Positions 32,901 to 64,000 of a stretch of DNA of 64,000 nt are shown piece after piece (position 1 is the stretch's first letter; the number at the start of each line of letters is the position of its first letter). The translations under genes and the position numbers were made by a program. Location of the stretch: contig SVNW01000010.1 in the NCBI GenBank assembly GCA_015066745.1, positions 1 to 64,000 on the forward strand, in the 5' to 3' direction. Source of the stretch: Ruminococcus sp. GTDB taxonomy: Bacteria > Bacillota > Clostridia > Oscillospirales > Ruminococcaceae. The notes under the pieces were generated by a model. It ran no database searches. It was not told where the DNA came from and saw nothing but the letters and a program-made list of their open reading frames with translations.

Positions 32901-35900
32901 GAGTTTGAACTTGTTGAGGGCAAGATACAGGGAAGCGAAAGCAACACTGTAAAGATGCTCGATGAATACTCAGAAGTAACAATAAGCAAAAAAGCAATCA
33001 ATGGAACAGAAGAGTTACCTGGTGCAACACTTAAAGTAACACTTCTTGAATCCACAAAGACAAAAGACGCAACACTTGAAAATGCAAAGGTAAGTGGCGG
33101 AGCAGAAAATGTGAAAGTAAGCAAAAACGAAATCACATTTGTAACAGGCACAACCAATGCACAGATAACAATGCTTCCTGACGGAAAGTACACACTTACA
33201 GAAATAACATCACCTGATGGATATACAGTAAATGAAGAAACAATAACTTTTGAAATTTCAGAAGGTAAACTTGTTTCGGGTACAGAAGTAGAAATGCTTG
33301 ACAAGCCGTCAGAAGTAAAGATAAGCAAAACAGACGTGGCAGGAAGTGAAGTACCTGGAGCGGTTCTTACACTTACACTCAAAAAATCATCAAAGACAGC
33401 AGATGCAACACTTGAAAAGTTTGTAACCGAAAGCATTACACTTGCAGACGAAACAAACAAAAATGCAATCAAGTGGACAAGCGGAGAAACACCGACAGTA
33501 TTTGCAGGGCTTCCTGACGGTGAATATACACTTGCAGAAAGCGTAGCACCTGACGGATATACAATAACAGACAGCATAGACTTTATAATCAAAGACGGAA
33601 AAGTTCAGGCAGTTACAGCAACTGTTCCACACCCGACAGAAAGTAGGGTAGATGCAACACAGAATGCAGTAATAATGGTAGATGAACTTTCTGAAACTAC
33701 AATAAGCAAGCAGAATGTTACAGGAAAAGAAATTCCCGGAGCAACTCTGATACTCACAGGTGAAAAACCACTTGGAAATATTACTTCAGAAACTGATATT
33801 ACAGTTGATGGAAATAAAGTAACATGGACAAGCGGAGAAACACCGACAGTTCTTAAAGGACTTCCGGATGGTAAGTATACACTTGAAGAAAGCGTAGCAC
33901 CTGACGGATATACAATAACAGATGCAATAACATTTGAAATTGAAAACGGAGTTCCTACTACAGAAAATATTGTTATGGTAGATGAACTCTCAAAGGTAAC
34001 AATAAGCAAGCAGAATGTAACCGGAGCAGAAATTCCGGGAGCAACTCTGATACTTACAGGAGAAAAACCACTTACAGATGTAACTTCTGAAACTGATATA
34101 AAGGTTGATGGAAATAAAGTAACATGGATAAGCGGAGAAACTCCAACAGTTCTCGAAGGCCTGCCTGACGGCAAGTATACACTTGAAGAAAGCGTAGCAC
34201 CTGACGGATATACAATAACAGACGCAATAACATTTGATATCAAAAACGGAGTACCAACACAGACAAATATCGTGATGGTAGACGAACTTTCAAAGGTAAC
34301 AGTAAGTAAACAGGACGTAACAGGAGCAGAAATTCCCGGAGCAACCCTGATACTTACAGGAGAAAAACCGCTTACAGGAGTAAAATCCGAAACAGCCCTT
34401 ACTGTAGCAGGTAACACTGTAAAATGGACAAGCGGAGAAACTCCGACAGTTCTCGAAGGCCTGCCGGATGGCAAGTATACACTTGAAGAAAGCGTAGCGC
34501 CTGACGGATACACAATAACAGATGCAATAACGTTTGAAATTAAAAACGGTGTACCGACTACAGAAAAGGTGGTAATGGTAGACGAACTTTCAAAAGTAAC
34601 TATAAGTAAGAAGGATATAGCAGGAGCAGAGCTTCCGGGAGCTATCCTCACACTTACAGGTGAAAAATCACTTGCTGACGTAACTTCAGAAAGTGAGATC
34701 AAAGTAACAGAAAACAGCATTACATGGACAAGCGGAAAAACACCTACAGTTTTAGCAGGACTTCCTGACGGCAAATATACACTCAGAGAAGATCAGGCAC
34801 CACTTGGATATGAAATCGCAGAAGAGATCACATTTACAGTAGAAAACGGAAAAGTGACAGAGTTTGCGGATAACACCGTAACAATGACAGATGTTCCGTT
34901 GCCCGAACCGTCAGAAGTACTTATAAGCAAGACAGATATGACAGGTGCAACAGAAGTACCGGGAGCAAAACTCACACTTACAGGTACAGCTGACTTAAGC
35001 GATGTAACATCAGACAGCAAGATAACAGTTGACGGAAAAGTGATCACATGGACAAGTAATGACAAACCTGTAAAACTTACAGGACTCCCGGATGGTAAGT
35101 ACACACTCGAAGAAAGTGTAGCACCGGATGGATATACTGTAACAGGCAAGGTAGAGTTTGAACTTGTTGAGGGCAAGATACAGGGAAGCGAAAGCAACAC
35201 TGTAAAGATGCTCGATGAATATTCAGAAGTAACAATAAGCAAAAAAGCAATCAACAAAACAGAAGAGTTACCTGGTGCAACACTTAAAGTAACACTTCTT
35301 GAATCCACAAAGACAAAAGACGCAACACTTGAAAATGCAAAGGTAAGTGGCGGAGCAGAAAACGTGAAAGTAAGCAAAAACGAAATCACATTTGTATCCG
35401 GCACAACCAATGCACAGATAACAATGCTTCCTGACGGAAAGTACACACTTACAGAAATAACATCACCTGATGGATATACAGTAAATAAAGAAACAATAAC
35501 TTTTGAAATTTCAGAAGGTAAACTTGTTTCGGGTACAGAAGTAGAAATGCTTGACAAGCCGTCAGAAGTAAAGATAAGCAAAACAGACGTAGCAGGAAGT
35601 GAAGTACCGGGTGCGGTTCTTACACTTACACTCAAAACACCGTTGAAAACATCAGGTGCGACACTTGAAAATGCAGTAAGCGATACAGTTAAGTTTGTTG
35701 ATCCTACAGGTGAAAACAAGAAATCTGTAACATGGGTAAGCTCTGATAAACCGGTGGTACTTACAGGAATACCTGATGGTGTGTATATACTTGAAGAAAG
35801 TGTAGCACCTGATGGATATACTGTAACAGACAGTATAAGCTTTACTGTAGATAACGGTAAGGTACAGAGTCTTGCTTCTACGGTTTCAAAACCGGGAGAA

Positions 35901-38900
35901 AGCAGAGTTGATACAGCAACATCAACAGTTATTATGGTTGATAAGATGTCAGAAGTATCTGTAAGCAAGCAGGACGTAACCGGAGCAGAAATTCCGGGAG
36001 CAACTCTCATACTTACAGGTGAAAGTGATCTTACAGATGTCAGATCAACAACAGAAATAACAGTTGACAAAAACAAAGTAACATGGATAAGCGGTGAAAC
36101 ACCAACTGTCCTCACAGGACTTCCTGACGGCAAATATACACTTGAAGAAAGTGTAGCGCCTGATGGATATACTATAACAGATGCGATCACTTTTGAAGTT
36201 GTAAACGGCGTGCCGACTACAAAGGAAATCGTGATGGTAGATGAACTTTCAGAAATACCGATAAGTAAGCAGGATGTGACAGGCCGTGAGATCCCCGGAG
36301 CAACACTGATACTTACAGGTGAAAAAGATCTTACAGGTGTTGATTCAATATCAAAGATAACAATTGATAAGAACACAATAACATGGAAGAGTACTTCAGT
36401 ACCTACAATTCTGAAAGGACTTCCTGATGGTAAATATACACTTGAAGAAAGTGTAGCACCTGATGGATACACAATAACAGATGCAATTACTTTTGAAGTT
36501 GTAAATGGTGTACCGACTACAGGAAATGTAGTAATGGTAGACGAACTTTCAAAGGTAACAGTAAGTAAACAGGACGTAACCGGAGCAGAGATTCCTGGAG
36601 CTACTCTTGTACTTACAGGTGAAAAATATCTTGCAAATATAAAATCAAATGCTGAAATAACAATCGACAGAAAAACTATAACATGGGTAAGTACAGATAC
36701 CCCGACAATTCTTGAAGGTCTGCCTGACGGCAAGTACACACTTGAAGAAAGCGTAGCACCTGACGGATACACAATAACAGACGCAATAACATTTGAGATC
36801 AAAAACGGAGTACCAACACAGACAGATATCGTGATGGTAGACGAACTCTCAAAGGTAACAGTAAGTAAACAGGATGTAACAGGAGTAGAAATTCCGGGAG
36901 CAACCCTGATACTTACAGGAGAAAAACCGCTTACAAATGTAAGATCTGAAACAGACCTCACAGTAGAGGACAACAAGATAACATGGACAAGTGGTAAGAC
37001 TCCGACAATTCTCGAAGGCCTGCCTGACGGCAAGTATACACTTGAAGAAAGCGTAGCACCTGACGGATATACAATAACAGACGCAATAACATTTGAGATT
37101 AAAAACGGAGTACCAACACAGACAGATATCGTGATGGTAGACGAACTCTCAAAGGTAACAGTAAGTAAACAGGATGTAACAGGAGTAGAAATTCCTGGAG
37201 CAACTCTGATACTTACAGGAGAAAAACCGCTTACAAATGTAAGATCTGAAACAGACCTCACAGTAGAGGACAACAAGATAACATGGACAAGTGGTAAGAC
37301 TCCAACGGTTCTCGAAGGCCTGCCTGACGGCAAGTATACACTTGAAGAAAGCGTAGCGCCTGACGGATATACAATAACAGACGCAATAACATTTGAGATT
37401 AAAAACGGAGTACCAACACAGACAGATATCGTGATGGTAGACGAACTCTCAAAGGTAACAGTAAGTAAACAGGATGTAACAGGAGTAGAAATTCCGGGAG
37501 CAACTCTGATACTTACAGGAGAAAAACCGCTTACAGGAGTAAAATCCGAAACAGACCTCACAGTAGAGGACAACAAGATAACATGGACAAGTGGTAAGAC
37601 TCCAACAGTTCTCGAAGGTCTGCCTGACGGCAAGTACACACTTGAAGAAAGCGTAGCACCTGACGGATACACAATAACAGATGCAATAACATTTGATATC
37701 AAAAACGGAGTACCAACACAGACAAATATCGTGATGGTAGACGAACTCTCAAAGGTAACAGTAAGTAAACAGGATGTAACAGGAGCAGAAATTCCGGGAG
37801 CAACCCTGATACTTACAGGAGAAAAACCGCTTACAGGAGTAAAATCCGAAACAGCCCTTACTATAGCAGGTAACACTGTAAAATGGACAAGCGGAGAAAC
37901 TCCGACAGTTCTCGAAGGCCTGCCGGATGGCAAGTATACACTTGAAGAAAGCGTAGCGCCTGACGGATACACAATAACAGATGCAATAACGTTTGAAATT
38001 AAAAACGGTGTACCGACTACAGAAAAGGTGGTAATGGTAGACGAACTTTCAAAAGTAACTATAAGTAAGAAGGATATAGCAGGAGCAGAGCTTCCGGGAG
38101 CTATCCTCACACTTACAGGTGAAAAATCACTTGCTGACGTAACTTCAGAAAGTGAGATCAAAGTAACAGAAAACAGCATTACATGGACAAGCGGAAAAAC
38201 ACCTACAGTTTTAGCAGGACTTCCTGACGGCAAATATACACTCAGAGAAGATCAGGCACCACTTGGATATGAAATCGCAGAAGAGATCACATTTACAGTA
38301 GAAAACGGAAAAGTGACAGAGTTTGCGGATAACACCGTAACAATGACAGATGTTCCGTTGCCCGAACCGTCAGAAGTACTTATAAGCAAGACAGATATGA
38401 CAGGTGCAACAGAAGTACCGGGAGCAAAACTCACACTTACAGGTACAGCTGACTTAAGCGATGTAACATCAGACAGCAAGATAACAGTTGACGGAAAAGT
38501 GATCACATGGACAAGTAATGACAAACCTGTAAAACTTACAGGACTCCCGGATGGTAAGTACACACTCGAAGAAAGTGTAGCACCGGATGGATATACTGTA
38601 ACAGGCAAGGTAGAGTTTGAACTTGTTGAGGGCAAGATACAGGGAAGCGAAAGCAACACTGTAAAGATGCTCGATGAATATTCAGAAGTAACAATAAGCA
38701 AAAAAGCAATCAACAAAACAGAAGAGTTACCTGGTGCAACACTTAAAGTAACACTTCTTGAATCCACAAAGACAAAAGACGCAACACTTGAAAATGCAAA
38801 GGTAAGTGGCGGAGCAGAAAACGTGAAAGTAAGCAAAAACGAAATCACATTTGTATCCGGCACAACCAATGCACAGATAACAATGCTTCCGGACGGAAAG

Positions 38901-40673
38901 TACACACTTACAGAAATAACATCACCTGATGGATATACAGTAAATAAAGAAACAATAACTTTTGAGATCTCAGAAGGTAAACTTGTTTCGGGTACAGAAG
39001 TAGAAATGCTTGACAAACCGTCAGAAGTAAAGATAAGCAAGTCTGATATAGCAGGAAGCGAAGTACCAGGTGCGGTTCTTACACTTACACTTGAAAAATC
39101 AGCTAAAACAGCAGGTGCAAACCTCGAAAAATATGTTGATTCAAAAGTTAAACTTGTAGATCAGACAAATAAAAATGTCATCACATGGACAAGTACAAGT
39201 GAACCTATGACATTTGCACAGCTTCCTGATGGTACATATACACTTGAAGAAAGTGTAGCACCTGATGGATATACTATCACAGACAGTATCGAATTTATAG
39301 TTGAAAATGGTGTAGTTCAGTCAGTCAAAGCTACAGTACCGCTTCCAAATGAAAGCAGAGTTGACAGCAACAGCAATACTGTAATAATGGTTGATGAACT
39401 TTCAGAAGTAGCTATAAGCAAAACTGATGTCGCAGGTGATGAACTTCCGGGTGCACTCCTCACTCTCACAGGCGAGAAGAGCCTCGAAAATGTAAAATCA
39501 TCATCAGATGTAGAAGTAAGCGGAAAATCTGTTTCATGGATCAGTGGCGATAAACCTGTAATTCTTTCAGGACTTCCTGACGGCAAATATACTCTTACAG
39601 AAAATCAGGCACCTATCGGTTATGAAATAGCAGAATCAATTACATTTACAATAAAATTTGGTATGGTTGAAGGCATGGCAGAAAATAAGATAGTTATGGT
39701 TGATGAACCTGAAGTGATTGTGACGACAACCACAACAGTAACAACCACTACAACGACTACTACTACAACACCACAGCCAACAACAACTGTAACAACAACG
39801 ACAACAACACCAGTTCCAACAACAACCGTAACAACGACAACAACACCAGTCCCAACAACAACCGTAACAACGACAACAACACCAAAACCGATAACAACCG
39901 TAACAACAACGACAACACCAAAACCGACAACAACTGTAACAACGACAACAACACCAAAACCAACAACAACTGTAACAACAACGACAACACCAAAACCGAC
40001 AACAACCGTGACAACAACGACAACACCAAAACCGACAACAACCGTAACAACGACAACAACACCAAAACCGACAACAACCGTAACAACAACGACAACACCA
40101 AAACCGACAACAACCGTAACAACAACGACAACACCAACTCCGACAACAACAGTAACAACAACAACGACACCGGCTCCGACAACAACTGTAACAACTACAG
40201 ATGACGATTTTAACATATCAATGGGAACATCGTCTGTATTTACAGGTGTAACAGTTACAGATGTTACAAGTGCATTTACAACAGCCGATAATCAGAGTAT
40301 GACTAATACAACAACAGCAACAACTGCCGACAATCAGAGTATGACTAATACAACAACGGCAACAACTGCTGATAATCAGAGTATGACTAATACAACAACT
40401 ACAGAAGGTACAACAGTAACATCTGTAACAGCTGATATCGAAAGTATGACAAATACCACTACATCTGAGACTGTGACAACAACTACTGATACACAAACAG
40501 TTGTAACCACAACAACACCAAAAGTTACAACAACTAAAAAATCCACTACAAAGCCACATTCATCATCAACTCCGAAAACAGGTGATACTGCCGGAATGGG
40601 CGTAGCATTTGTAATGGCAGGTGCGTTTGTATCTATGGTAGTAATGAGAAAAAAGAAGAACAATAACAAATAA
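26901..40673 (+). CDS. Giant (4590 aa) cell-wall-anchored SpaA/prealbumin-fold repeat protein with N-terminal choice-of-anchor-A-like domain and Thr-rich stalk
   Basis: Signal peptide; LGIAGNFTIFVKEKFVIPEASADIEGRLAAGGGI; dozens of 'ISKxDxxGxExPGAxLxLT...GLPDGKYTLEESVAPDGYTIT...F.I.NG....IVMVDE' modules; Thr/Pro stalk; sorting signal TPKTGDTAGMGVAFVMAGAFVSMVVMRKKKNNNK. Confidence 0.95.
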   Translation: MKEKTLNIGKSIRKKRFVSFFTAMFIVVSALGDCLPVLAEFASNIDGIEDVTGNAEKNKELLDVENPDDLFLGIAGNFTIFVKEKFVIPEASADIEGRLAAGGGIVNERGGTSTYTVGNKYTGNGATVILGGGTLDRLDIGTPEKNRKFVITSDTDITPETMLVKENTYISDDIVDFDAEFTKLDSLSSSLAEKEVTGTVEQGFWGGVVLRGNNEGLNIFNITEEQWKSIHENKSMISIYVPGDAYKSYVVMNIEGTEIEMPATSISFFDEVHQGPVLVHQDTSTEPNAQLCGNILYNIPQAQSVHYNGSIQGSLLAVNANVSGEEGGHVSGSVIAKSAEKFGIQAGSITFNPPESVIEDSKPVSKISISKIGGDNGAGLSGAVMKITSSVDLSEAGVKSFYAKDVVVEGNTITWTTEFFPAQFTHLPDGEYTITEVSAPKGYELAKPVKFTIVDAKVDGVINKTITITDEIRTPKDVKFSKTDISGKELPGAVLVLSSTSGNELSSFVTEQIKHYNSMANTLTWTTTDTPVVFTDLPDGDYTLEEIDVPAGYMLAEKISFKIIGGSVYYETSTVAEADQNKVDSDTNTVTVVNKVMQLQILKKDENGNPLPGADMAITNTDGTSMVGVVADTEIVVKDTPNEKYVIRWHSTDKPVVFTGLPDGNYTLSEVTAPAGYELFDNVKFKVVNGIAEGFNGNVIEVTDRKTPEASQIYISKTDMSGADEVNGAVLKLTLSGGGKLPAIESSNPTLTSDENSIIFTSQSVPTSIKGLPDGTYVLSESVAPDKYTITGSIEFTIKNGKIEGTTDNAVKMKDELSKITVSKKDISGTKEIAGARLVVTLKEATKTKIGADLGDGTVTVTGGASAVSTSPDSVTFLSGNEPAVITGLPDGKYTLTEITSPDGYTINEETVNFEIINGVVVSGASVQMLDRPSEIKISKTDVAGAEIPGATLTLTLTKPAKTENADLTGTGEPTVEGDPKAVSWVSGTSPKVLTNVPDGEYTLREDQAPLGYEIAEEITFTVVNGKVSEFADNTVIMIDALTPELSEVIISKTDVTGATEVPGAKLTLTGTADLSSVTSDGAITVNSNVITWTSSDKPVKFVGLPDGKYTLEESVAPDGYTITGKVEFELVDGKVQGSESNTVKMINEYSKVTISKQDIAGAELPGAILTLTGEKSLANVTSESEIKVTENSITWTSGKTPTVLTGLPNGKYTLREDQAPLGYEIAEEITFTVVNGKVSEFKDDTIIMTDVLKPEPSEVLISKTDVTGVTEVPGAKLTLTGTADLSSVTSDSEITVDGKVITWTSNDKPVKLTGLPDGKYTLEESVAPDGYTVTGKVEFELVEGKIQGSESNTVKMLDEYSEVTISKKAINGTEELPGATLKVTLLESTKTKDATLENAKVSGGAENVKVSKNEITFVTGTTNAQITMLPDGKYTLTEITSPDGYTVNEETITFEISEGKLVSGTEVEMLDKPSEVKISKTDVAGSEVPGAVLTLTLKKSSKTADATLEKFVTESITLADETNKNAIKWTSGETPTVFAGLPDGEYTLAESVAPDGYTITDSVDFIIKDGKVQAVTATVPHPTESRVDATQNAVIMVDELSKVTISKQDIAGAELPGALLTLTGEKSLANVTSESEIKVTENSITWTSGKTPTVLTGLPNGKYTLREDQAPLGYEIAEEIIFTVVNGKVSEFADNTVIMIDALTPELSEVIISKTDVTGATEVPGAKLTLTGTADLSSVTSDGAITVNSNVITWTSSDKPVKFVGLPDGKYTLEESVAPDGYTITGKVEFELVDGKVQGSESNTVKMINEYSKVTISKQDIAGAELPGAILTLTGEKSLANVTSESEIKVTENSITWTSGKTPTVLTGLPNGKYTLREDQAPLGYEIAEEITFTVVNGKVSEFKDDTIIMTDVLKPEPSEVLISKTDVTGVTEVPGAKLTLTGTADLSSVTSDSEITVDGKVITWTSNDKPVKLTGLPDGKYTLEESVAPDGYTVTGKVEFELVEGKIQGSESNTVKMLDEYSEVTISKKAINGTEELPGATLKVTLLESTKTKDATLENAKVSGGAENVKVSKNEITFVTGTTNAQITMLPDGKYTLTEITSPDGYTVNEETITFEISEGKLVSGTEVEMLDKPSEVKISKTDVAGSEVPGAVLTLTLKKSSKTADATLEKFVTESITLADETNKNAIKWTSGETPTVFAGLPDGEYTLAESVAPDGYTITDSIDFIIKDGKVQAVTATVPHPTESRVDATQNAVIMVDELSETTISKQNVTGKEIPGATLILTGEKPLGNITSETDITVDGNKVTWTSGETPTVLKGLPDGKYTLEESVAPDGYTITDAITFEIENGVPTTENIVMVDELSKVTISKQNVTGAEIPGATLILTGEKPLTDVTSETDIKVDGNKVTWISGETPTVLEGLPDGKYTLEESVAPDGYTITDAITFDIKNGVPTQTNIVMVDELSKVTVSKQDVTGAEIPGATLILTGEKPLTGVKSETALTVAGNTVKWTSGETPTVLEGLPDGKYTLEESVAPDGYTITDAITFEIKNGVPTTEKVVMVDELSKVTISKKDIAGAELPGAILTLTGEKSLADVTSESEIKVTENSITWTSGKTPTVLAGLPDGKYTLREDQAPLGYEIAEEITFTVENGKVTEFADNTVTMTDVPLPEPSEVLISKTDMTGATEVPGAKLTLTGTADLSDVTSDSKITVDGKVITWTSNDKPVKLTGLPDGKYTLEESVAPDGYTVTGKVEFELVEGKIQGSESNTVKMLDEYSEVTISKKAINKTEELPGATLKVTLLESTKTKDATLENAKVSGGAENVKVSKNEITFVSGTTNAQITMLPDGKYTLTEITSPDGYTVNKETITFEISEGKLVSGTEVEMLDKPSEVKISKTDVAGSEVPGAVLTLTLKTPLKTSGATLENAVSDTVKFVDPTGENKKSVTWVSSDKPVVLTGIPDGVYILEESVAPDGYTVTDSISFTVDNGKVQSLASTVSKPGESRVDTATSTVIMVDKMSEVSVSKQDVTGAEIPGATLILTGESDLTDVRSTTEITVDKNKVTWISGETPTVLTGLPDGKYTLEESVAPDGYTITDAITFEVVNGVPTTKEIVMVDELSEIPISKQDVTGREIPGATLILTGEKDLTGVDSISKITIDKNTITWKSTSVPTILKGLPDGKYTLEESVAPDGYTITDAITFEVVNGVPTTGNVVMVDELSKVTVSKQDVTGAEIPGATLVLTGEKYLANIKSNAEITIDRKTITWVSTDTPTILEGLPDGKYTLEESVAPDGYTITDAITFEIKNGVPTQTDIVMVDELSKVTVSKQDVTGVEIPGATLILTGEKPLTNVRSETDLTVEDNKITWTSGKTPTILEGLPDGKYTLEESVAPDGYTITDAITFEIKNGVPTQTDIVMVDELSKVTVSKQDVTGVEIPGATLILTGEKPLTNVRSETDLTVEDNKITWTSGKTPTVLEGLPDGKYTLEESVAPDGYTITDAITFEIKNGVPTQTDIVMVDELSKVTVSKQDVTGVEIPGATLILTGEKPLTGVKSETDLTVEDNKITWTSGKTPTVLEGLPDGKYTLEESVAPDGYTITDAITFDIKNGVPTQTNIVMVDELSKVTVSKQDVTGAEIPGATLILTGEKPLTGVKSETALTIAGNTVKWTSGETPTVLEGLPDGKYTLEESVAPDGYTITDAITFEIKNGVPTTEKVVMVDELSKVTISKKDIAGAELPGAILTLTGEKSLADVTSESEIKVTENSITWTSGKTPTVLAGLPDGKYTLREDQAPLGYEIAEEITFTVENGKVTEFADNTVTMTDVPLPEPSEVLISKTDMTGATEVPGAKLTLTGTADLSDVTSDSKITVDGKVITWTSNDKPVKLTGLPDGKYTLEESVAPDGYTVTGKVEFELVEGKIQGSESNTVKMLDEYSEVTISKKAINKTEELPGATLKVTLLESTKTKDATLENAKVSGGAENVKVSKNEITFVSGTTNAQITMLPDGKYTLTEITSPDGYTVNKETITFEISEGKLVSGTEVEMLDKPSEVKISKSDIAGSEVPGAVLTLTLEKSAKTAGANLEKYVDSKVKLVDQTNKNVITWTSTSEPMTFAQLPDGTYTLEESVAPDGYTITDSIEFIVENGVVQSVKATVPLPNESRVDSNSNTVIMVDELSEVAISKTDVAGDELPGALLTLTGEKSLENVKSSSDVEVSGKSVSWISGDKPVILSGLPDGKYTLTENQAPIGYEIAESITFTIKFGMVEGMAENKIVMVDEPEVIVTTTTTVTTTTTTTTTTPQPTTTVTTTTTTPVPTTTVTTTTTPVPTTTVTTTTTPKPITTVTTTTTPKPTTTVTTTTTPKPTTTVTTTTTPKPTTTVTTTTTPKPTTTVTTTTTPKPTTTVTTTTTPKPTTTVTTTTTPTPTTTVTTTTTPAPTTTVTTTDDDFNISMGTSSVFTGVTVTDVTSAFTTADNQSMTNTTTATTADNQSMTNTTTATTADNQSMTNTTTTEGTTVTSVTADIESMTNTTTSETVTTTTDTQTVVTTTTPKVTTTKKSTTKPHSSSTPKTGDTAGMGVAFVMAGAFVSMVVMRKKKNNNK
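29890..33682 (+). repeat. Two tandem copies of a 1986-bp block in the giant gene
   Basis: Identical landmarks offset by exactly 1986 bp (e.g. 30001 vs 31987; 31691 vs 33677), only scattered SNPs. Confidence 0.9.
33681..34581 (+). repeat. 300-bp tandem SpaA-module repeats, first run
   Basis: gatgaactt/ct landmarks at 33681, 33981, 34281, 34581: exact 300-bp period. Confidence 0.9.
35941..38041 (+). repeat. 300-bp tandem SpaA-module repeats, second run
   Basis: Landmark gaactctcaaaggtaacagtaagtaaacaggatgtaacaggag at 36841, 37141, 37441 and 37741, with diverged units at 36241 and 36541. Confidence 0.9.
39730..40200 (+). repeat. 36-bp tandem repeats encoding TTTVTTTTTPKP stalk
   Basis: acaacaaccgtaacaacgacaacaacaccaaaaccg units. 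Confidence 0.9.
40284..40405 (+). repeat. 42-bp tandem repeats encoding ADNQSMTNTTTATT
   Basis: Copies start at 40284, 40326 and 40368. Confidence 0.85.
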
Positions 40674-53736: not shown

Positions 53737-55335
53737 TCACATGACTGTTTTTTCAATGATACACTCATGTTTTTTAGTGTCTTTATCATAATTTACGCCG
53801 ACAAGAAGAATTTCTTTGCCATACCCTTTAAGAGTACCTGAGTAACGTTTTTCTTTGATTTGTTTAATAGCAGTATTGGCATCTTTGTCCCATTTAAGTT
53901 CGATTATCATAGCAGGTTTGTTGCCCGAGTCGGCTCTTGGTATAAGTGCAATATCTGCAAAACCTTTGCCTGTCGGGAATTCACGAATGACAGTATAGTA
54001 TGCCGGAGCAGTAAAGTATGCCATTGTAATAGCGCAGCTAAGAGAATTTTCGTTATTGTATTCTATGATAGAAGTGAATGTTTCATGAGAAAGTTCAAGA
54101 AGTTCTGCAACCTTACGAGCATCACCACGTATTGTGGCATTAAGAGTATCATTGCACATACGATACATTTTAGCAACTTCACTCCAACTGCTTTTTTTCA
54201 TAGCCGCATGAAATGCCTTAGCAACTTCAAAGTTAGGGATATATGCAGTACCGTCTTCAGCGTCATACCCAAGATAACCAAGATGAATAAGAGCAGTCAG
54301 AGCATCATCTTTTGATTCGATTTCAGATAAATCGTTCTGAAATGTTTCTGGGTCAACCGATACTTTTTCACCTGAAAGCATTCTCATTACATCTTCTTTA
54401 AGTCCGTCAAAGTTAAGAGTGATAAAAGTGTTGATGGTATCAAAAGCCGAAGTGTTCTTCCAGTAGGATTCAAGATTTTGACGTGACATAGCCATATAAA
54501 CGGAATTAGGGTTGTACATATGTTTTTTATTTATAAGATAACCATTGTACCATTCTTTTACAGAACTCATATTCATTTCGTATTTCTGACAAAGAGTTTC
54601 TACTTCACTTTCTGTAAATCCGAAATATGTTGTAAGTTCAGCAGAATCAAGCATGGTGTATTCTGTAAAATTATTCAAAGCAGATTCTTTTTTTATTTTC
54701 TTGATAGGAAGTATTCCTGTGATATATCCGAGGGCGAGAAATTTTTGAGATTCTTCACTTTTAAAAAGTGAATGCAAAAACTGGAGATATTCATGTATAA
54801 GGTCGGGTCTGTCGGAAAACTCTCTTATAACGCAGTCCCATTCGTCTATTATTATGATAAATGGTGTTTTGATTTGTTTCCCGTCAATTTCAACTGCGGA
54901 TTTATCATATACTTGTTTGATAATTGTAGCAAATGGATTGTTTATATCTATAATATCCGGATATTCTTCCTTGAATTCGTTATAAAGAAGTTCGATAATT
55001 TTTGAAACCAGACCGTCTTTATAGTAATCGGCTATAGATGAAATATCGAGATGAATAACATTATATTTATTAAGATGCTTTTCAAAATCAGGAGATTTTG
55101 ATATTTCAAGAGAAGAAAAAAGTTCTTTTGAATCACAGCCTTTGCTGTAATAAGCATCGATCATACGAGCGGCTTGAGATTTTCCGAATCTTCGTGCATG
55201 GCTTACAGAGATACAATTTTTTTCAGAGCAAAGTTTTTTATTTAGTATATTTAAAAGACCGCTTTTATCAATATAAATTTCGTCTTGTGATGATTTTTGG
55301 AAACCTTCATTTGAAGGGTTGAAGTAAGTCCCCAT
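53737..55335 (-). CDS. AAA-ATPase-like / PD-(D/E)XK nuclease-like protein, copy 1
   Basis: YIDKSGLLNIL, HARRFGKSQAARMI (P-loop variant), IIIIDEWDCVIREF (Walker B); C-terminal ADIALIPRADSGNKPAMIIELKWDKDAN (PD-ExK). Confidence 0.88.
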   Translation of the reverse strand: MGTYFNPSNEGFQKSSQDEIYIDKSGLLNILNKKLCSEKNCISVSHARRFGKSQAARMIDAYYSKGCDSKELFSSLEISKSPDFEKHLNKYNVIHLDISSIADYYKDGLVSKIIELLYNEFKEEYPDIIDINNPFATIIKQVYDKSAVEIDGKQIKTPFIIIIDEWDCVIREFSDRPDLIHEYLQFLHSLFKSEESQKFLALGYITGILPIKKIKKESALNNFTEYTMLDSAELTTYFGFTESEVETLCQKYEMNMSSVKEWYNGYLINKKHMYNPNSVYMAMSRQNLESYWKNTSAFDTINTFITLNFDGLKEDVMRMLSGEKVSVDPETFQNDLSEIESKDDALTALIHLGYLGYDAEDGTAYIPNFEVAKAFHAAMKKSSWSEVAKMYRMCNDTLNATIRGDARKVAELLELSHETFTSIIEYNNENSLSCAITMAYFTAPAYYTVIREFPTGKGFADIALIPRADSGNKPAMIIELKWDKDANTAIKQIKEKRYSGTLKGYGKEILLVGVNYDKDTKKHECIIEKTVM

Positions 55336-55356
55336 TTTATCCTCCTCCTTTTTTAT

Positions 55357-56961
55357 TTAGTTACAGTTATCCACACTTTCAATGATACACTCATGCTTTT
55401 TAGTGTCTTTATCATAATTTACGCCGACAAGAAGAATTTCTTTGCCATACCCTTTAAGAGTACCTGAGTAACGTTTTTCTTTGATTTGTTTAATAGCAGT
55501 ATCGGAATCTTTGTCCCATTTAAGTTCGATTATCATAGCAGGTTTGTTGCCCGAGTCGGCTCTTGGTATAAGTGCAATATCTGCAAAACCTTTGCCCGTC
55601 GGGAGTTCTCTTATTACATTATAGTATGCAGGAGCGGTGTAGTAAGCCATGGTTATAGCACAGCTTAAAGCATTTTCATCATTGTATTTTAAAACCGAGG
55701 TATAGGTATCATGTGAAAGTTCAAGAAGTTCAGCGACTCTGTCAGAATTGCCACGTATAGTAGCAAAGAGAAGTTCTTCGCATCGTGAAATGGATTTTGA
55801 TATCTCTTTCCAGTTTCCTTTTGAAAGAGCGGACTGATATGCTTCTTTTACTTCATAGTTAGGTATATATGCGGTTTTGTCCTCTTTGTTATAACCAAGA
55901 TAACCAAGATGAATAAGAGCAGTCAGAGCGTCATCTTTAGTATTTATAACAGACAAATCATTTTCAAAGCCACGTACATCGACATATACAGGTTTGCCTG
56001 CAAGCATATCTGTTATATCCTGTTTTAATCCGTCAAAATCAAGCATTATATATGAGTTTATTGTATCAAAAGCAGAAGTATTTTTCCAGTAAGGTTCGAG
56101 GCTATGGTCAGACATAGCCTGATAAACGGAATTTGGGTTGTACATATGTTTGCCATTGATAAGGTAGCCGTCGTACCATGCTTTTACCGAATCTATATTC
56201 ATTTTGTATTTTTGGCAGAGAATTTCAACTTCAGATTCTGTAAATCCAAAATATTGAGTCAGGTCTTTTGAATCTAACATTGTGAATTCTTTAAAATTAT
56301 TCAGAGCAGATTCTTTTTTTATTTTTTTAATAGGAAGTATACCTGTTATATATCCAAGAGCTAGAAATTTTTGAGATTCTTCACTTTTAAAAAGAGAATG
56401 CAAAAACTGGAGATATTCATGTATAAGGTCGGGTCTGTCGGAAAACTCTCTTATAACGCAGTCCCATTCGTCTATTATTATGATAAATGGTGTTTTGATT
56501 TGTTTTCCGTCAATTTCAACTGCGGATTTATCGTATACTTGTTTTATGATTGTTGCAAATGGATTATTTATATCTATAATATCCGGATATTCTTCTTTGA
56601 ATTCGTTATAAAGAAGTTCGATAATTTTTGAAACCAGACCGTCTTTATAGTAATCGGCTATAGATGAAATATCGAGATGAATAACATTATATTTATTAAG
56701 ATGCTTTTCAAAATCAGGAGATTTTGATATTTCAAGAGAAGAAAAAAGTTCTTTTGAATCACAGCCTTTGCTGTAATAAGCATCGATCATACGAGCGGCT
56801 TGAGATTTTCCGAATCTTCGTGCATGGCTTACAGAGATACAATTTTTTTCAGAGCAAAGTTTTTTATTTAGTATATTTAAAAGACCGCTTTTATCAATAT
56901 AAATTTCGTCTTGTGATGATTTTTGGAAACCTTCATTTGAAGGGTTGAAGTAAGTCCCCAT
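55357..56961 (-). CDS. AAA-ATPase-like / PD-(D/E)XK nuclease-like protein, copy 2
   Basis: Same architecture; start exactly 1626 bp from copy 1. Confidence 0.88.
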   Translation of the reverse strand: MGTYFNPSNEGFQKSSQDEIYIDKSGLLNILNKKLCSEKNCISVSHARRFGKSQAARMIDAYYSKGCDSKELFSSLEISKSPDFEKHLNKYNVIHLDISSIADYYKDGLVSKIIELLYNEFKEEYPDIIDINNPFATIIKQVYDKSAVEIDGKQIKTPFIIIIDEWDCVIREFSDRPDLIHEYLQFLHSLFKSEESQKFLALGYITGILPIKKIKKESALNNFKEFTMLDSKDLTQYFGFTESEVEILCQKYKMNIDSVKAWYDGYLINGKHMYNPNSVYQAMSDHSLEPYWKNTSAFDTINSYIMLDFDGLKQDITDMLAGKPVYVDVRGFENDLSVINTKDDALTALIHLGYLGYNKEDKTAYIPNYEVKEAYQSALSKGNWKEISKSISRCEELLFATIRGNSDRVAELLELSHDTYTSVLKYNDENALSCAITMAYYTAPAYYNVIRELPTGKGFADIALIPRADSGNKPAMIIELKWDKDSDTAIKQIKEKRYSGTLKGYGKEILLVGVNYDKDTKKHECIIESVDNCN

Positions 56962-56982
56962 TTTATCCTCCTCCTTTTTTAT

Positions 56983-58587
56983 TTAGTTACAGTTATCCAC
57001 ACTTTCAATGATACACTCATGCTTTTTAGTGTCTTTATCATAATTTACGCCGACAAGAAGAATTTCTTTGCCATACCCTTTAAGAGTACCTGAGTAACGT
57101 TTTTCTTTGATTTGTTTAATAGCAGTATCGGAATCTTTGTCCCATTTAAGTTCGATTATCATAGCAGGTTTGTTGCCCGAGTCGGCTCTTGGTATAAGTG
57201 CAATATCTGCAAAACCTTTGCCCGTCGGGAGTTCTCTTATTACATTATAGTATGCAGGAGCGGTGTAGTAAGCCATGGTTATAGCACAGCTTAAAGCATT
57301 TTCATCATTGTATTTTAAAACCGAGGTATAGGTATCATGTGAAAGTTCAAGAAGTTCAGCGACTCTGTCAGAATTGCCACGTATAGTAGCAAAGAGAAGT
57401 TCTTCGCATCGTGAAATGGATTTTGATATCTCTTTCCAGTTTCCTTTTGAAAGAGCGGACTGATATGCTTCTTTTACTTCATAGTTAGGTATATATGCGG
57501 TTTTGTCCTCTTTGTTATAACCAAGATAACCAAGATGAATAAGAGCAGTCAGAGCGTCATCTTTAGTATTTATAACAGACAAATCATTTTCAAAGCCACG
57601 TACATCGACATATACAGGTTTGCCTGCAAGCATATCTGTTATATCCTGTTTTAATCCGTCAAAATCAAGCATTATATATGAGTTTATTGTATCAAAAGCA
57701 GAAGTATTTTTCCAGTAAGGTTCGAGGCTATGGTCAGACATAGCCTGATAAACGGAATTTGGGTTGTACATATGCTTTTTATTTATAAGATAACCATTAT
57801 ACCATTCTTTTACAGAACTCATATTCATTTCGTATTTCTGACAAAGGCTCTCTACTTCACTTTCTGTAAATCCGAAATATGTTGTAAGTTCAGCAGAATC
57901 AAGCATGGTGTATTCTGTAAAATTATTCAGAGCAGATTCTTTTTTTATTTTCTTGATAGGAAGTATTCCTGTGATATATCCGAGGGCTAGAAATTTTTGA
58001 GATTCTTCACTTTTAAAAAGTGAATGCAGAAACTGGAGATATTCATGTATAAGGTCGGGTCTGTCGGAAAACTCTCTTATAACGCAGTCCCATTCGTCTA
58101 TTATTATGATAAATGGTGTTTTGATTTGTTTCCCGTCAATTTCAACTGCGGATTTATCATATACTTGTTTGATAATTGTAGCAAATGGATTGTTTATATC
58201 TATAATATCCGGATATTCTTCCTTGAATTCGTTATAAAGAAGTTCGATAATTTTTGAAACCAGACCGTCTTTATAGTAATCGGCTATAGATGAAATATCG
58301 AGATGAATAACATTATATTTATTAAGATGCTTTTCAAAATCAGGAGATTTTGATATTTCAAGAGAAGAAAAAAGTTCTTTTGAATCACAGCCTTTGCTGT
58401 AATAAGCATCGATCATACGAGCGGCCTGAGATTTTCCGAATCTTCGTGCATGACTTACGGATATACGTTTTTCCTCGGTAAGAAGTTTTCTGTTAAGAAT
58501 GCTTATCATAGGCGTTTTATCTATATAAATCATGCTGTTTACGGTCTGCTGGTAACCTTCATTTGAAGGATTAAAATAAGTGCCCAT
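56983..58587 (-). CDS. AAA-ATPase-like / PD-(D/E)XK nuclease-like protein, copy 3
   Basis: Same architecture; start exactly 1626 bp from copy 2; divergent first ~45 aa. Confidence 0.88.
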   Translation of the reverse strand: MGTYFNPSNEGYQQTVNSMIYIDKTPMISILNRKLLTEEKRISVSHARRFGKSQAARMIDAYYSKGCDSKELFSSLEISKSPDFEKHLNKYNVIHLDISSIADYYKDGLVSKIIELLYNEFKEEYPDIIDINNPFATIIKQVYDKSAVEIDGKQIKTPFIIIIDEWDCVIREFSDRPDLIHEYLQFLHSLFKSEESQKFLALGYITGILPIKKIKKESALNNFTEYTMLDSAELTTYFGFTESEVESLCQKYEMNMSSVKEWYNGYLINKKHMYNPNSVYQAMSDHSLEPYWKNTSAFDTINSYIMLDFDGLKQDITDMLAGKPVYVDVRGFENDLSVINTKDDALTALIHLGYLGYNKEDKTAYIPNYEVKEAYQSALSKGNWKEISKSISRCEELLFATIRGNSDRVAELLELSHDTYTSVLKYNDENALSCAITMAYYTAPAYYNVIRELPTGKGFADIALIPRADSGNKPAMIIELKWDKDSDTAIKQIKEKRYSGTLKGYGKEILLVGVNYDKDTKKHECIIESVDNCN

Positions 58588-58862
58588 AATTCACCCTCCG
58601 TTTCATATATTATTCACTTTAAGTATAACATTTTTTTTATTTATTATCAATATAAAAAATGTCATTTGTGCAGACAAGCGTGTTTAGGATTGGTGTTACG
58701 GATTTTTGTGTGATTTTAATAAAATTTGAACGGTTTTATTGTTAAATAAGCGGAAGTTTCAGAGATGATGCAACATCTTGATAGTTGTTTACGATAGTTA
58801 TTTATGTACAGCAAAAATACAAAATTTTGTTGTGATTACTTACACGTTATGGAGGGGAAGTA

Positions 58863-59441
58863 ATGAATACAGAAGAAATAAATATTTCAAGGAAAGGAAC
58901 GTCAGATGAACTATACAGAGAACTTCTTAATGAATTAGGACGATATGTTTATGTTATAGTGTTTAATAAATTAAGAAGTTGTGGTACAAAAGAAGACGTA
59001 GAAGAATGTGTCAGCGATGTTTTTGCAGAGTTGTTTATTATTGCAGAAGACGGAAAATGTGATGATATAAGAAAGATGGCAGGAATTATTGCAAAAAGAA
59101 GGGCTGTAGATTATTTCAGAAAGCTTTCAGTTTCACAAAACAAGATGGTATGTGTAGAATATGAGGAGTTTTCAGAATTTGCAGACACGCTCAATGTTGA
59201 GGTTTTATCAGAAAGCAATGAAGTAAGAAGAGATATTTTAAGAGAGATCGAGGCACTCGGAGAGCCTGATTCAACTATTCTGATGCAAAAATTTTATTAT
59301 AATAAAACATCTTCGGAAATAGGAAAGACAGTAAAAATGACAGCTTCATCGGTTCGCTCACGATGTGCACGAGCAATAGAACGTCTTAAAATATCACTTG
59401 CGTCGATCGGAATAACAAGACAGGAGGGTAACTATGAGTAA
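58863..59441 (+). CDS. ECF-like RNA polymerase sigma factor, copy 1
   Basis: 192 aa; region 2 (EDVEECVSDVFAELF...RRAVDYFRKL) and region 4 (LMQKFYYNKTSSEIGKTVKMTASSVRSRCARAIERLK). Confidence 0.88.
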   Translation: MNTEEINISRKGTSDELYRELLNELGRYVYVIVFNKLRSCGTKEDVEECVSDVFAELFIIAEDGKCDDIRKMAGIIAKRRAVDYFRKLSVSQNKMVCVEYEEFSEFADTLNVEVLSESNEVRRDILREIEALGEPDSTILMQKFYYNKTSSEIGKTVKMTASSVRSRCARAIERLKISLASIGITRQEGNYE

Positions 59442-62394
59442 ACAAAATATATTTGATTTGCTTGAAGATGCTAATGAAAATGAAATAGAAACACTTGAAC
59501 GTATGACTCCGGAATTTAGTGAAGAACAGTTTGAAAGAATACTTAAAATGAGTGTTGCCAAAAAAGAGAGCATAAGAAAAGAAAAAGAGAAAAAGCAGGA
59601 TACAGACAGTGTTGAAGTATCGGAAGTGAGAGTACATAAATTTTCAATATGGAAAAGGTTTTTGTCGGTTGCGGTGTTGTTTGTTTTTATTGTCGGTTAT
59701 CTTGTAACAAAAGTTGTTCTTGTTAAAAATTCACCGATACAATTGTCAACAGCCGATATTATGTATAGCGCTGATAATTATTTGCTACAAGCTGTTGAAC
59801 TTGAAGAGTATATTACAACTATCAGCGATGTAAGATATAATGAAAATACAGAAAGCTTTGACATTTATGGTAATATTAGAGGTGCAGGTGCTTGTGTTTA
59901 TCTTAAAAATGGTGGTAATTTTGATGAGTTTGAGATTTTAGGTGAGCATGCAAATGAACCATTTTTGTATCATAACGGAGAATTTTATGGTGGTGGGCTT
60001 AATCTTGACGGAAGTCAGGATAATATTTTTCCGGAAAGTGCCGAGGTTAAAAGTATTTGTGTTGATGACAACGGATATGAATACAGGCTTTTGGAAGTAA
60101 ATGGTTTTCAGGATATACTTGATGTGAGAAATAAAGAAAATGATGTACGATATTTTGGGAAAATTTCAGATATAGACGGACTCAAAGAATATATAAGCTA
60201 TACAGGTGAACAACGAAGTATCTTAAAAACGATAAAAGTTTATGATGAAAAAATATATATAGGCGGATTTTTAGTAGATGTTATTGATAATAATAAATAT
60301 TATTCGCCTTTTATCATTGTTCTAAGCAGTAAAGATTTTACGCTTGTAGACGTAATTACTGAAATTGATGATGATATCAAAATGTTAGAAGATATATTGA
60401 TCAATGAAAACGGTGAAATAATAGCTGTGTATTATGATTCTGAAACTGCTGTGTATTATGATTCTAAAACTACCGTTGCATATGTGTGTGATGTTGTAAG
60501 AAATAATACAGTAGAGATTGAATATTGTCAGAAAGTAATTTCATATGCTGAAAATTCGTTTGTGTATGCTGATGATATAGGCAGAATTTATGAATATGAC
60601 TTTGAAGAAAATGAAAGTATTCTTATAGATGAAATATCGGAATTAAAAGATAAAGATAACGATACACTTATGACCATGTTAAGTTATGATAGTAATGGTT
60701 ATGCATATGTATTGTTTTATAATAATATTTTAAAAAATACAGCTATTAGTTATTCAGAAGACGGTGCTGTTGGCGAAAGCAAGAATACTGATGATGTGTT
60801 TATTTTAAAAAAAGAAAATAAAGTATATCATGCTGTAAATTATACAGGTGACAAGAAAATAATTTTTGAGAATGAAGATTATACAAATATAAAATCTATG
60901 GACTTTGATGAAGAATATTTTTATCTTTCCGATGAAAATATGTTGTATGTTTATGATTATGATGGAAAACTGCATTTTCAGAAAAAAATAAAAAATACAA
61001 CAGGTATAAAATTATTCGGGAACTCAAAACAACATTATGTTGCAACAGTTGATAATAAAAACAAGTGGAAAATAAGTTCTGTAAATACTGAAGAAAAAGA
61101 AATATCAGAAGAATGTACAGTCAATATCAATAAAAATGCAGAGTTTATTGACGGTGACAATAATTATGATTTTTATATATTTGCAGATGAAATATTATAC
61201 GGATATAGGGGAAATAAAGAACTTGTTCCGCTTATTGATCTGTCATCATATGCTTTATCAGGTGAAATAAAAGGGATCAATATATCAAATGAGAAAATAG
61301 AAATAGTGACATCTTACGGAATTAGTATATTAAAGCCAAGAGATACTAAGGTTTCAGAGCATAAGACAATAAAAATACTTGTTCCGCCATCATCGTACAA
61401 ATACAGTGAAATATTAAAAAGATACAAATCTGAAAATGGAAATATAGATTTTATAATTGATTATCCTGATTCTTATGATATAACAGAAAAGATGCCCGAT
61501 ATTGATATTGTTATAGCTGATGATTATATAGATATAACAGGTCTGATGGAACAGGGAGTTTTTGAAGACATTTATAAATATATTTCAGACAATGACCTGA
61601 TATTACCTGAATATACAGATAATATAGTAAATGCGTATTCTGATGATTATGCATTTCCGCTTACTTTCGATATAAAAGGTGTTGATATTATATCAGACTC
61701 TGTGATAGATAAGAAAACATTTTGCCTGAATGATCTGAAACTTCTGGTTGAAAATGGTGATTATAGTATAGGTTATGTACCTTCAATATTTTTGCTTGAT
61801 AATAACAAGAGGTTTATAGATTATGATAAACATAGCGTTGATTTTGAAAATGATGATTTTATCAGTATACTTGAAATTATGGAAAAATGCCCGTATCTTA
61901 ACCTGGAACATAGTATTTATGAGTCTTCACTCTCATATAAATCAGCTACAGAAAATTTAAGATTTGGTGATGACTTTAACTTTATCGGTGTTCCTTCATC
62001 AAGTGGAAATGATTATTATGTGCATTCGGATGATTTATTTATGATTTGTAAAAATTCTGAAAATAAAGATATATGTTTTGATGTTTTAAAATTCCTTTTG
62101 GGCGAAGAAGTACAGGAAACAATAACAGATAGTAGATGGAAGTTCCCTGTAAATAGGAGTTTGTATCAGAAATATATGAATGAGCTTGCATGGAGTACAG
62201 ATGAAGAGTATACAAAAGAAGTTATGGATATTATAGAAAATACGCATAATGTTTATATAGCCAATAATAAAGTGAAACATATATTGGGAGAAGAAATATT
62301 AAAGTTTGAAAGTAAAGCTCAGAATGCAAATGAAACAGCGGAAAGTGTACAGAAAAGAGTAAAAGTTGATATTATCAATACTACAAACTCTTAA
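59434..62394 (+). CDS. Single-pass membrane protein: cytoplasmic putative anti-sigma region, TM, large ectodomain with C-terminal extracellular solute-binding-protein-like domain
   Basis: Overlaps sigma stop by 8 bp; WKRFLSVAVLFVFIVGYLVTKVVLV TM; C-terminal TIKILVPPSSYKYSEILKRYKSENGNIDFII...YVHSDDLFMICKNSENKDICFDVLKFLLGEEVQETITDSRWKFPVNRSLYQKYM. Confidence 0.8.
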   Translation: MSKQNIFDLLEDANENEIETLERMTPEFSEEQFERILKMSVAKKESIRKEKEKKQDTDSVEVSEVRVHKFSIWKRFLSVAVLFVFIVGYLVTKVVLVKNSPIQLSTADIMYSADNYLLQAVELEEYITTISDVRYNENTESFDIYGNIRGAGACVYLKNGGNFDEFEILGEHANEPFLYHNGEFYGGGLNLDGSQDNIFPESAEVKSICVDDNGYEYRLLEVNGFQDILDVRNKENDVRYFGKISDIDGLKEYISYTGEQRSILKTIKVYDEKIYIGGFLVDVIDNNKYYSPFIIVLSSKDFTLVDVITEIDDDIKMLEDILINENGEIIAVYYDSETAVYYDSKTTVAYVCDVVRNNTVEIEYCQKVISYAENSFVYADDIGRIYEYDFEENESILIDEISELKDKDNDTLMTMLSYDSNGYAYVLFYNNILKNTAISYSEDGAVGESKNTDDVFILKKENKVYHAVNYTGDKKIIFENEDYTNIKSMDFDEEYFYLSDENMLYVYDYDGKLHFQKKIKNTTGIKLFGNSKQHYVATVDNKNKWKISSVNTEEKEISEECTVNINKNAEFIDGDNNYDFYIFADEILYGYRGNKELVPLIDLSSYALSGEIKGINISNEKIEIVTSYGISILKPRDTKVSEHKTIKILVPPSSYKYSEILKRYKSENGNIDFIIDYPDSYDITEKMPDIDIVIADDYIDITGLMEQGVFEDIYKYISDNDLILPEYTDNIVNAYSDDYAFPLTFDIKGVDIISDSVIDKKTFCLNDLKLLVENGDYSIGYVPSIFLLDNNKRFIDYDKHSVDFENDDFISILEIMEKCPYLNLEHSIYESSLSYKSATENLRFGDDFNFIGVPSSSGNDYYVHSDDLFMICKNSENKDICFDVLKFLLGEEVQETITDSRWKFPVNRSLYQKYMNELAWSTDEEYTKEVMDIIENTHNVYIANNKVKHILGEEILKFESKAQNANETAESVQKRVKVDIINTTNS

Positions 62395-62462
62395 AAAATA
62401 TTAATTTTGTGGTTTAGTATATAGTTTTGTCATGGTTACTTACAAATTGTGGAGGGGAAGTA

Positions 62463-63041
62463 ATGAATACAGAAGAAATAAATATTTCAAGGAAAGGAAC
62501 ATCAGATGAACTATACAGAGAACTTCTTAATGAATTAGGACGATACGTTTATGTTATAGTGTTTAATAAATTAAGAAGTTGTGGCACAAAAGAAGACGTA
62601 GAAGAATGTGTCAGCGATGTTTTTGCGGAGTTGTTTATTATTGCAGAAGACGGAAAATGTGATGATATAAGAAAGATGGCAGGAATTATTGCCAAAAGAA
62701 GGGCTGTAGATTATTTCAGAAAGCTTTCAGTTTCACAAAACAAGATGGTATGTGTAGAATATGAGGAGTTTTCAGAATTTGCAGACACGCTCAATGTTGA
62801 GGTTTTATCAGACAGCAATGAAGTAAGAAGAGATATTTTAAGAGAGATCGAGGCACTCGGAGAGCCTGATTCAACTATTCTGATGCAAAAATTTTATTAT
62901 AATAAAACATCTTCGGAAATAGGAAAGACATTAAAAATGACAGCTTCAACAGTACGTTCACGATGTGTACGAGCAATAGAACGTCTTAAAATATCACTTG
63001 CGTCGATCGGAATAACAAGACAGGAGGGTAACTATGAGTAA
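62463..63041 (+). CDS. ECF-like RNA polymerase sigma factor, copy 2
   Basis: Nearly identical to copy 1; start exactly 3600 bp downstream; same GGAGGGGAAGTAATG RBS. Confidence 0.88.
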   Translation: MNTEEINISRKGTSDELYRELLNELGRYVYVIVFNKLRSCGTKEDVEECVSDVFAELFIIAEDGKCDDIRKMAGIIAKRRAVDYFRKLSVSQNKMVCVEYEEFSEFADTLNVEVLSDSNEVRRDILREIEALGEPDSTILMQKFYYNKTSSEIGKTLKMTASTVRSRCVRAIERLKISLASIGITRQEGNYE

Positions 63042-64000
63042 ACAAAATATATTTGATTTTCTGGAAGATGCTAATGAAAATGAAATAGAAACACTCGAAC
63101 GTATGACTCCGGAATTTAGTGAAGAACAGTTTGAAAGAATACTTAAAATGAGTGTTGCCAAAAAAGAGAGCATAAGAAAAGAAAAAGAGAAAAAGCAGGA
63201 TACAGACAGTGTTGAAGTATCGGAAGTGAGAGTACATAAATTTTCAATATGGAAAAGGTTTTTATCGGTTGCGGTGTTGTTTTTGCTGATATCAGGAAGT
63301 TTTCTTACAGTAGGACATTTTGTGAGAAATTTGAATTTATCTTCTGCTAAACCCAAACCTTTTGATGTTCCGGTTACTTCTGTAACAGATGAAACAGAGA
63401 CAACAGCCAAAACAGTTACTTTGGCTACTGAAGCATCAATTGTTACAACAGATGTGGCAGATAATGATATTTCGAATACAAAAGAACTGAATACAGAAAC
63501 TCTGATTAATGAATATTTTGAATCAGTAATATCTATATCATCTTTTAACGAAAATATTTATGTGTCCGGAAATATGATTTCAGAAAAAACTTATGAATTT
63601 ACATGTCCTGAAAACAACAAAAGAATCGTATTTTCAGCTGAAAGTGATCAGATTTATTTCTTTGATGATAGGTTATGTACAGTTTATCAAAGCAGTGAAA
63701 ATTATTACGGAGTACAGCTGATAGATAGAAACAATGGAGAAACAAGATACTTTCCTTTAGAGCAAACGGATATATCTGATTTAATGTTTTTGAATGATGA
63801 TATATTTTATATATCAGAGCAAAATAATCTGTGTGTAGTTGATATGGTGACAAACGAGAAATCAGAATATGCTTTACCTGCAGAATTTAAAAAGTTCTCA
63901 GAAAAGTGTTTTACAGTTGATGAAAATGGATATATATATTTCTTTTGTTCAGATACTTCTGATAATAAAGTTCTTTACAAATTTGATAATGAACTTAATG
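63034..64000 (+). CDS. Second membrane regulator: same cytoplasmic N-terminus, different ectodomain; open at window end
   Basis: MSKQNIFDFLEDANENEIETLERMTPEFSEEQFERILKMSVAKKESIRKEKEKKQ...FSIWKRFLSVAVLFLLISGSFLTVGHF, then unrelated Thr-rich/propeller-like sequence; no stop before 64000. Not in the ORF track. Confidence 0.8.
   Translation, partial: MSKQNIFDFLEDANENEIETLERMTPEFSEEQFERILKMSVAKKESIRKEKEKKQDTDSVEVSEVRVHKFSIWKRFLSVAVLFLLISGSFLTVGHFVRNLNLSSAKPKPFDVPVTSVTDETETTAKTVTLATEASIVTTDVADNDISNTKELNTETLINEYFESVISISSFNENIYVSGNMISEKTYEFTCPENNKRIVFSAESDQIYFFDDRLCTVYQSSENYYGVQLIDRNNGETRYFPLEQTDISDLMFLNDDIFYISEQNNLCVVDMVTNEKSEYALPAEFKKFSEKCFTVDENGYIYFFCSDTSDNKVLYKFDNELN

Follow-up and report, generated by a model that had tools for sequence, protein, structure and literature searches.

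Two adjacent gene units of a Ruminococcus sp. share a near-identical signalling core and carry different outer domains (heads). They are likely to be sigma/anti-sigma pairs that captured heads from a family of solute-binding-protein (SBP) type, were duplicated, and had one head swapped; sigma binding, proteolysis, a ligand, and a pooled output of the two units would all be parts of such a system. The window analysed comprises 64,000 nt (contig SVNW01000010.1, positions 1–64,000), and the rest of unit 2, which runs past its end, was taken from the contig sequence that follows. The features are collected in Table 1.

Anatomy and shared core of the two units

Each unit consists of a sigma factor gene and, behind it, a gene whose product spans the membrane once (regulators 1 and 2). 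As the sequence-only reading had claimed, the starts of the sigma genes are separated by exactly 3600 bp, with an 8-bp overlap between each sigma gene and the gene downstream. Since 3600 bp is the length of one unit, the exact figure was given no meaning. The extent of near-identity, said to run from the RBS into the membrane helix, was also borne out. The two cores align at 98% DNA identity over 831 bp; in a direct comparison they differ at 16 of 833 positions, with 13 of the 16 substitutions at third codon positions, while the identity profile stays high until 59682/63282 and then collapses, within the membrane helix, to only ~45%. On the 5' side of the RBS there is a flank of ~25 bp that is partly common to both units.

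Based on profile matches, both sigma factors are assigned to the ECF type. Sigma 1 scored 55.3 bits against the NCBIfam ECF model TIGR02937 (cut-off 42.9), and the Pfam model of sigma region 4 (Sigma70_r4) gave 26.1 bits (sigma 1) and 31.5 bits at a cut-off of 24.1; the Pfam model of region 2 gave 14.0 bits, under its cut-off of 24.0. The two sigma factors, as well as the N-termini of the two regulators, are 98–99% identical.

Table 1. Features of the two units and associated sites (positions in the window unless a contig is named)
Feature	Position	Strand	Basis
Near-identical core, unit 1 (RBS, sigma, N-terminus, first part of membrane helix)	58850..59682	+	Comparison with 62450–63282
RBS of sigma 1, GGAGGGG, inside shared block	58851..58857	+	Sequence, identity profile
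ECF-type sigma factor 1, 192 aa	58863..59441	+	TIGR02937 and Sigma70_r4 matches
Regulator 1, 986 aa, single-pass membrane protein	59434..62394	+	ORF, hydropathy, model
Regulator 1 cytoplasmic N-terminus, residues 1–78, putative sigma-binding region	59434..59667	+	Motif, sigma correlation, low-to-medium-confidence model
Regulator 1 membrane helix, residues 79–97	59668..59724	+	Hydropathy; modelled helix 70–97
Regulator 1 all-beta, propeller-like part, residues 98–645	59725..61368	+	Family homology, family model, profile search
Regulator 1 SBP domain, residues 646–986	61369..62391	+	Model and Foldseek, phmmer
Regulator 1 last codons and following DNA, source type of the 3' relic	62374..62413	+	Local alignment with contig 65234–65272
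Near-identical core, unit 2	62450..63282	+	Comparison with unit 1
RBS of sigma 2	62451..62457	+	Sequence
ECF-type sigma factor 2, 192 aa	62463..63041	+	Mechanical ORF begins at TTG 62427; ATG matching the sigma 1 start is 62463
Regulator 2, 728 aa, same N-terminus, beta-only head	63034..64000 in window, end at contig 65220	+	Contig sequence, tree, alignment
Promoter-like sites before free propeller-SBP lipoprotein genes	G000 C24:19381–19413, C77:81286–81318; G009 C105:14677–14709, C39:42974–43006

The arrangement recurs in a second genome of the genus (G009; contigs under isolate RGIG8538 from water deer caecum, JAGAKZ01), whose 3.6-kb contig C94 starts inside a sigma copy, continues through regulator 1 and a further 70 bp, and ends with the start of the next sigma copy. 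Because the order is the same, the tandem arrangement cannot be put down to assembly of the source genome alone, and a contig ending within sigma copies at both sides is what short-read assembly makes of a near-identical tandem repeat. The regulator 1 heads of the two genomes are 98% identical. At sites where the window copies differ, unit 1 of the second genome agrees with window copy 1 in 9 of 11 cases; its next unit is of the copy-2 type over most of the upstream flank and of the copy-1 type at four of five sigma-gene sites. Given these mosaic core alleles, the duplication seems to predate the divergence of the two genomes, and exchange between the copies seems to hold the cores alike.

Cytoplasmic N-terminus and related sigma pairs

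Relatives of the window sigma in the genus, selected solely for an adjacent downstream gene, yielded 22 pairs (class A). The partners in these pairs have a membrane helix after an N-terminus of 65–98 residues, and most share an N-terminal motif of the approximate form F-x-x-L-E-N-A-D-x-x-T...S-x-x-E-K-x-R-I. The heads differ among the pairs: some match M23 peptidase or PASTA, some give weak matches to PepSY or endopeptidase-inhibitor models, and others resemble nothing known. In the 17 pairs retained after thinning, sigma distances were correlated with N-terminal distances (r 0.68, a value reached in 0 of 5000 permutations) and more weakly with head distances in the same pairs (r 0.37). The correlated divergence fits binding of the sigma by the N-terminus. 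In a model of low-to-medium confidence, the N-terminus of regulator 1 forms three helices (residues 3–12, 15–23, and 30–55) ahead of the membrane helix. Anti-sigma models of Pfam and NCBIfam gave no match to the regulator N-terminus, which contains no cysteine and hence no Hx3Cx2C zinc motif.

A separate set of sigma-coupled proteins with propeller-SBP heads was also seen in the genus (class B: L102, L104, L109, L114, L115, L118, L124, L138, L139, L142–L147, L150, and L153). Most of these have a different short N-terminus, approximately N-I-x-D-K-Y-I ... R-K-K-K, ahead of the membrane helix.

A promoter-like motif, TGTnACACT-N12-TACGATTGTATA, was found upstream of many class-A sigma genes. When up to three mismatches were allowed, the source genome contained four sites, against 0 for the reversed-pattern control; genus-wide the control also yields a few matches, and the pattern is not clean at this threshold. 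Two of the four sites precede class-A sigma genes that helped define the motif, and the other two lie 88–103 bp before propeller-SBP lipoprotein genes that were not used in its definition. The same two lipoprotein loci carry the motif in the second genome, so that across both genomes it stands 82–103 bp ahead of the gene. As a general trait of the lipoprotein family the motif was rejected (rank test p 0.40; only two loci, each in two genomes). Upstream of either window sigma the class-A motif did not rise above chance, the best-scoring site being no better than shuffles, and the look-alike TGCAACATC-N12-TACGATAGTTAT at 58769 is unsupported as a window sigma promoter (matrix score −5.1).

Fold and lineages of the heads

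The sequence-only reading held that the first ectodomain ends in an SBP-like domain, and structure prediction followed by a Foldseek search agreed with it. The domain was modelled with a pLDDT of mostly 80–95, and the top match was CbpC of C. thermocellum (PDB 7x0o; E 1.5e-15, TM 0.68 by target length), which was again the best solved match when phmmer was run with sequence alone (1.6e-8). Pfam SBP_bac_8 or SBP_bac_1 exceeded the cut-off in several relatives; in regulator 1 itself the Pfam SBP model scored 16.5, under the cut-off of 26. By modelled fold and family match the C-terminal domain of regulator 1 is a real SBP domain, which may bind a solute. CbpC, the closest relative of the domain in fold and in solved sequence, is a stand-alone SBP, whereas the window SBP is the C-terminal part of a membrane protein. 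None of the sugars tested was bound by CbpC, in which a loop obstructs the pocket (PMC9601137). Plant glycans or sugars, the inputs suggested in the sequence-only reading, are hypothetical ligands of the window heads. Since regulator 2 lacks an SBP domain, the signalling step must be able to do without one.

The long part between the membrane helix and the SBP domain is predicted to be all-beta and propeller-like. Residues 96–440 of regulator 1 were modelled poorly, and a class-B relative (L142) was modelled with good confidence, showing ~48 strands within residues 98–660; natural as well as designed propeller chains were matched in a profile search with the family.

The two ectodomains had been described as looking unrelated, a reading that was ruled out by direct and family comparisons. 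Aligned directly, they are 21% identical over 502 columns (E ~1e-7), and sequence comparison places both heads in one genus-wide family of ~1,000-residue proteins made of a beta-rich part and an SBP domain. Most members are free lipoproteins with a signal peptide and a lipobox. The regulator 1 head had 11 matches in the source genome (one gene can yield more than one match). Residues 81–978 of regulator 1 match lipoprotein pieces of genome G001 at ~40% identity, with the match starting in the signal peptide; the two pieces, each at the end of a different contig, are assumed to represent one gene. The regulator 2 head is 36% identical to the beta part of lipoprotein L107 over 629 columns.

In a quick tree of the beta part (49 rows), which has long branches in the regulator 1 group, regulator 1 groups with the free lipoproteins L111, L112, and L113 (SH-aLRT 99), while regulator 2 groups separately with L107 and L120 (SH-aLRT 100). 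A third sigma-coupled set, which has a different N-terminus, is placed elsewhere. The starred branches of the tree require three or more transitions between free and sigma-coupled forms, suggesting at least three origins of sigma coupling for this head family within the genus.

Named genomes with the family include those of Ruminococcus, R. flavefaciens, and Butyrivibrio, besides others. Of 80 named loci, those with sigma coupling all came from records corresponding to genomes of this genus, and no case outside the genus appeared in the inspected loci from 149 family genomes, a similarity-based sample with short flanks in which rare cases could be missed. At the inspected loci of free lipoproteins, which include Ruminococcus and Butyrivibrio, the genes follow ABC-permease-like and MacB/HlyD-like or MacB/FtsX-like genes, the permeases being recognized by reading of the sequence and not by domain search. 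A propeller-SBP lipoprotein of the Ruminococcus type was also seen in a record labelled as an Alistipes senegalensis MAG (L187, JAMPEF010000004.1), which is possibly a mislabelled or mixed bin.

A probable trace of head exchange is visible on the 3' side. Downstream of the regulator 2 stop codon, at contig positions 65234–65272 outside the window, there is a ~40-nt relic of the unit 1 3' end, with 34 of 40 aligned columns identical and a local alignment score of 48, compared to a best score of 37 in 5000 shuffles. The presence of unit-1-type DNA on both sides of the regulator 2 head fits head replacement within an already duplicated unit, and cassette-like replacement of the head is probable. 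A frameshifted SBP remnant behind regulator 2 was considered and rejected, as the 195 bp left on the contig contain no visible SBP sequence and only the relic of the unit 1 end.

Two further cases of mosaic structure were observed. Another tandem pair of class-B sigma/propeller-SBP regulators (L118, 1198–8978, genome G008) has ~180 bp around the membrane helix at 92–95% identity inside otherwise diverged genes; exchange at the membrane-helix joint is therefore not unique to the window units. Beside the sigma units, on the minus strand of the window (53737–58587), there are three tandem AAA-ATPase/PDDEXK_9 genes that are mosaics, with stretches of 93–100% identity alternating with stretches of 62–82% in a pattern that differs from pair to pair. 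The region may thus be prone to exchange between copies.

Proposed mechanism, alternatives, and known systems

We propose that the short cytoplasmic N-terminus of the regulator tethers the sigma to the membrane until a signal reaches the outer head. The regulator would then be cleaved or inactivated, the sigma would be freed, and transcription would start. The heads would have been taken from propeller-plus-SBP lipoproteins, with the core's membrane helix replacing the signal peptide. The unit would then have been duplicated in tandem and one head replaced, as a cassette, from another lipoprotein lineage (beta part only), with copy-to-copy exchange keeping the cores alike. The earlier proposal of one signalling core with exchanged sensor heads is supported by the breakpoint in the helix, the 3' scar, and the position of the heads in different lipoprotein lineages. 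Because sigma factors and N-termini are so similar in the two units, both receptors should act on one sigma pool, giving two inputs and one output. The site-2 protease family (M50) is present; it was also found in 14 of 14 control genomes and, being near-universal, lends proteolysis weak support. Only tentatively do we extend this to a cassette system, in which the genus recombines heads of numerous propeller-SBP lipoproteins onto conserved cores, two receptors serve one sigma pool, and related sigmas drive free propeller-SBP lipoprotein genes; this wider picture is possible rather than probable.

A simpler history would be plain tandem duplication followed by fast divergence, in which both heads descend from one duplicated head, gene conversion keeps the cores alike, and no swap took place. 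The mosaic core alleles do show exchange between copies, the heads are distant homologues, and the L118 pair combines a similarly conserved membrane-helix block with diverged heads, all of which such a history would explain. It would not explain why the heads fail to group, each being nearer, with strong support, to its own lineage of free lipoproteins, nor why regulator 2 lacks an SBP domain and nevertheless has a unit-1-type 3' end behind its stop codon, and we consider it improbable. Still less probable is that the membrane proteins are co-transcribed targets or co-activators of the sigma instead of anti-sigma factors. The failure of known anti-sigma models to match the N-terminus is in keeping with that idea; the overlap of the genes, the short cytoplasmic motif that most class-A pairs have in common despite varying heads, and the correlated divergence of sigma and N-terminus all speak against it.

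The remaining alternative concerns what the heads do. The propeller or SBP part could serve as a docking platform that monitors an ABC transporter, a wall polymer, or another lipoprotein and relays its state to the sigma, without sensing a free ligand alone. Free lipoproteins of the family adjoin ABC-permease-like and MacB/FtsX-like genes, the closest SBP structure, CbpC, is blocked at its pocket and did not bind the sugars tested (PMC9601137), and regulator 2, if functional, works without an SBP domain. The window units, however, have no transporter genes next to them, their upstream neighbours being the AAA-ATPase/PDDEXK genes, and we regard docking as somewhat unlikely, though clearly less so than the two preceding alternatives.

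The analogy with SigI/RsgI of C. thermocellum, drawn in the sequence-only reading, holds for the architecture and does not extend to the protein families, since no RsgI or SigI model match was seen. Both systems have several pairs per genome in which a membrane anti-sigma (putative in the window) combines one cytoplasmic core with varied heads and is presumed to sense outside substrates (PMC12203970). SigI, however, belongs to a separate sigma group (Group V), whereas the window sigma matches the ECF model. RsgI carries an autocleaving domain in the periplasm; models of this domain and of the RsgI N-terminal domain (Pfam, NCBIfam) matched neither regulator, regulator 2 having been scanned to the window end. 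The RsgI heads listed are CBM, PA14, GH10, peptidase-like, and NTF2-like; a propeller-plus-SBP head is not among them, and adjacent near-identical cores with different heads are not described (PMC12203970).

ECF sigma factors paired with class I anti-sigma factors (ASDIs) offer a second comparison: the gene for an ECF sigma adjoins that of a membrane protein whose N-terminus is cytoplasmic, and the sigma and this N-terminus diverge together (PMC7406223). The window regulators differ in having no zinc motif, no ASDI model match, and a shorter N-terminus; some ASDIs also lack the zinc motif (PMC7406223). Ahead of the membrane helix of regulator 1, the low-to-medium-confidence model shows three helices and not four. 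In the ASDI survey head domains are well conserved within a group (PMC7406223), in contrast to the different heads on almost identical cores in the window. The sigma24C-Rsi24C pair of C. thermocellum likewise combines a sigma with a membrane anti-sigma whose head is related to a carbohydrate-active protein (GH5-like); that head is enzyme-like, with no SBP or propeller, and a tandem head swap is not mentioned (PMC3990059). Open-access papers were searched for anti-sigma factors bearing an SBP or a propeller as head; none described this arrangement, and an earlier description elsewhere is possible.

If the preferred reading of captured and swapped heads is correct, joining a transport-type binding protein to an anti-sigma factor could give a signalling pathway new inputs, and could have done so more than once, with the sequence scars of one such event still visible. 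The side-by-side position of near-identical cores with different heads would provide a natural test of a shared sigma pool and of anti-sigma modularity.

Elsewhere in the window, two very long open frames were observed on the plus strand, at 26901–40673 (4590 aa) and at 672–7880 (2402 aa).
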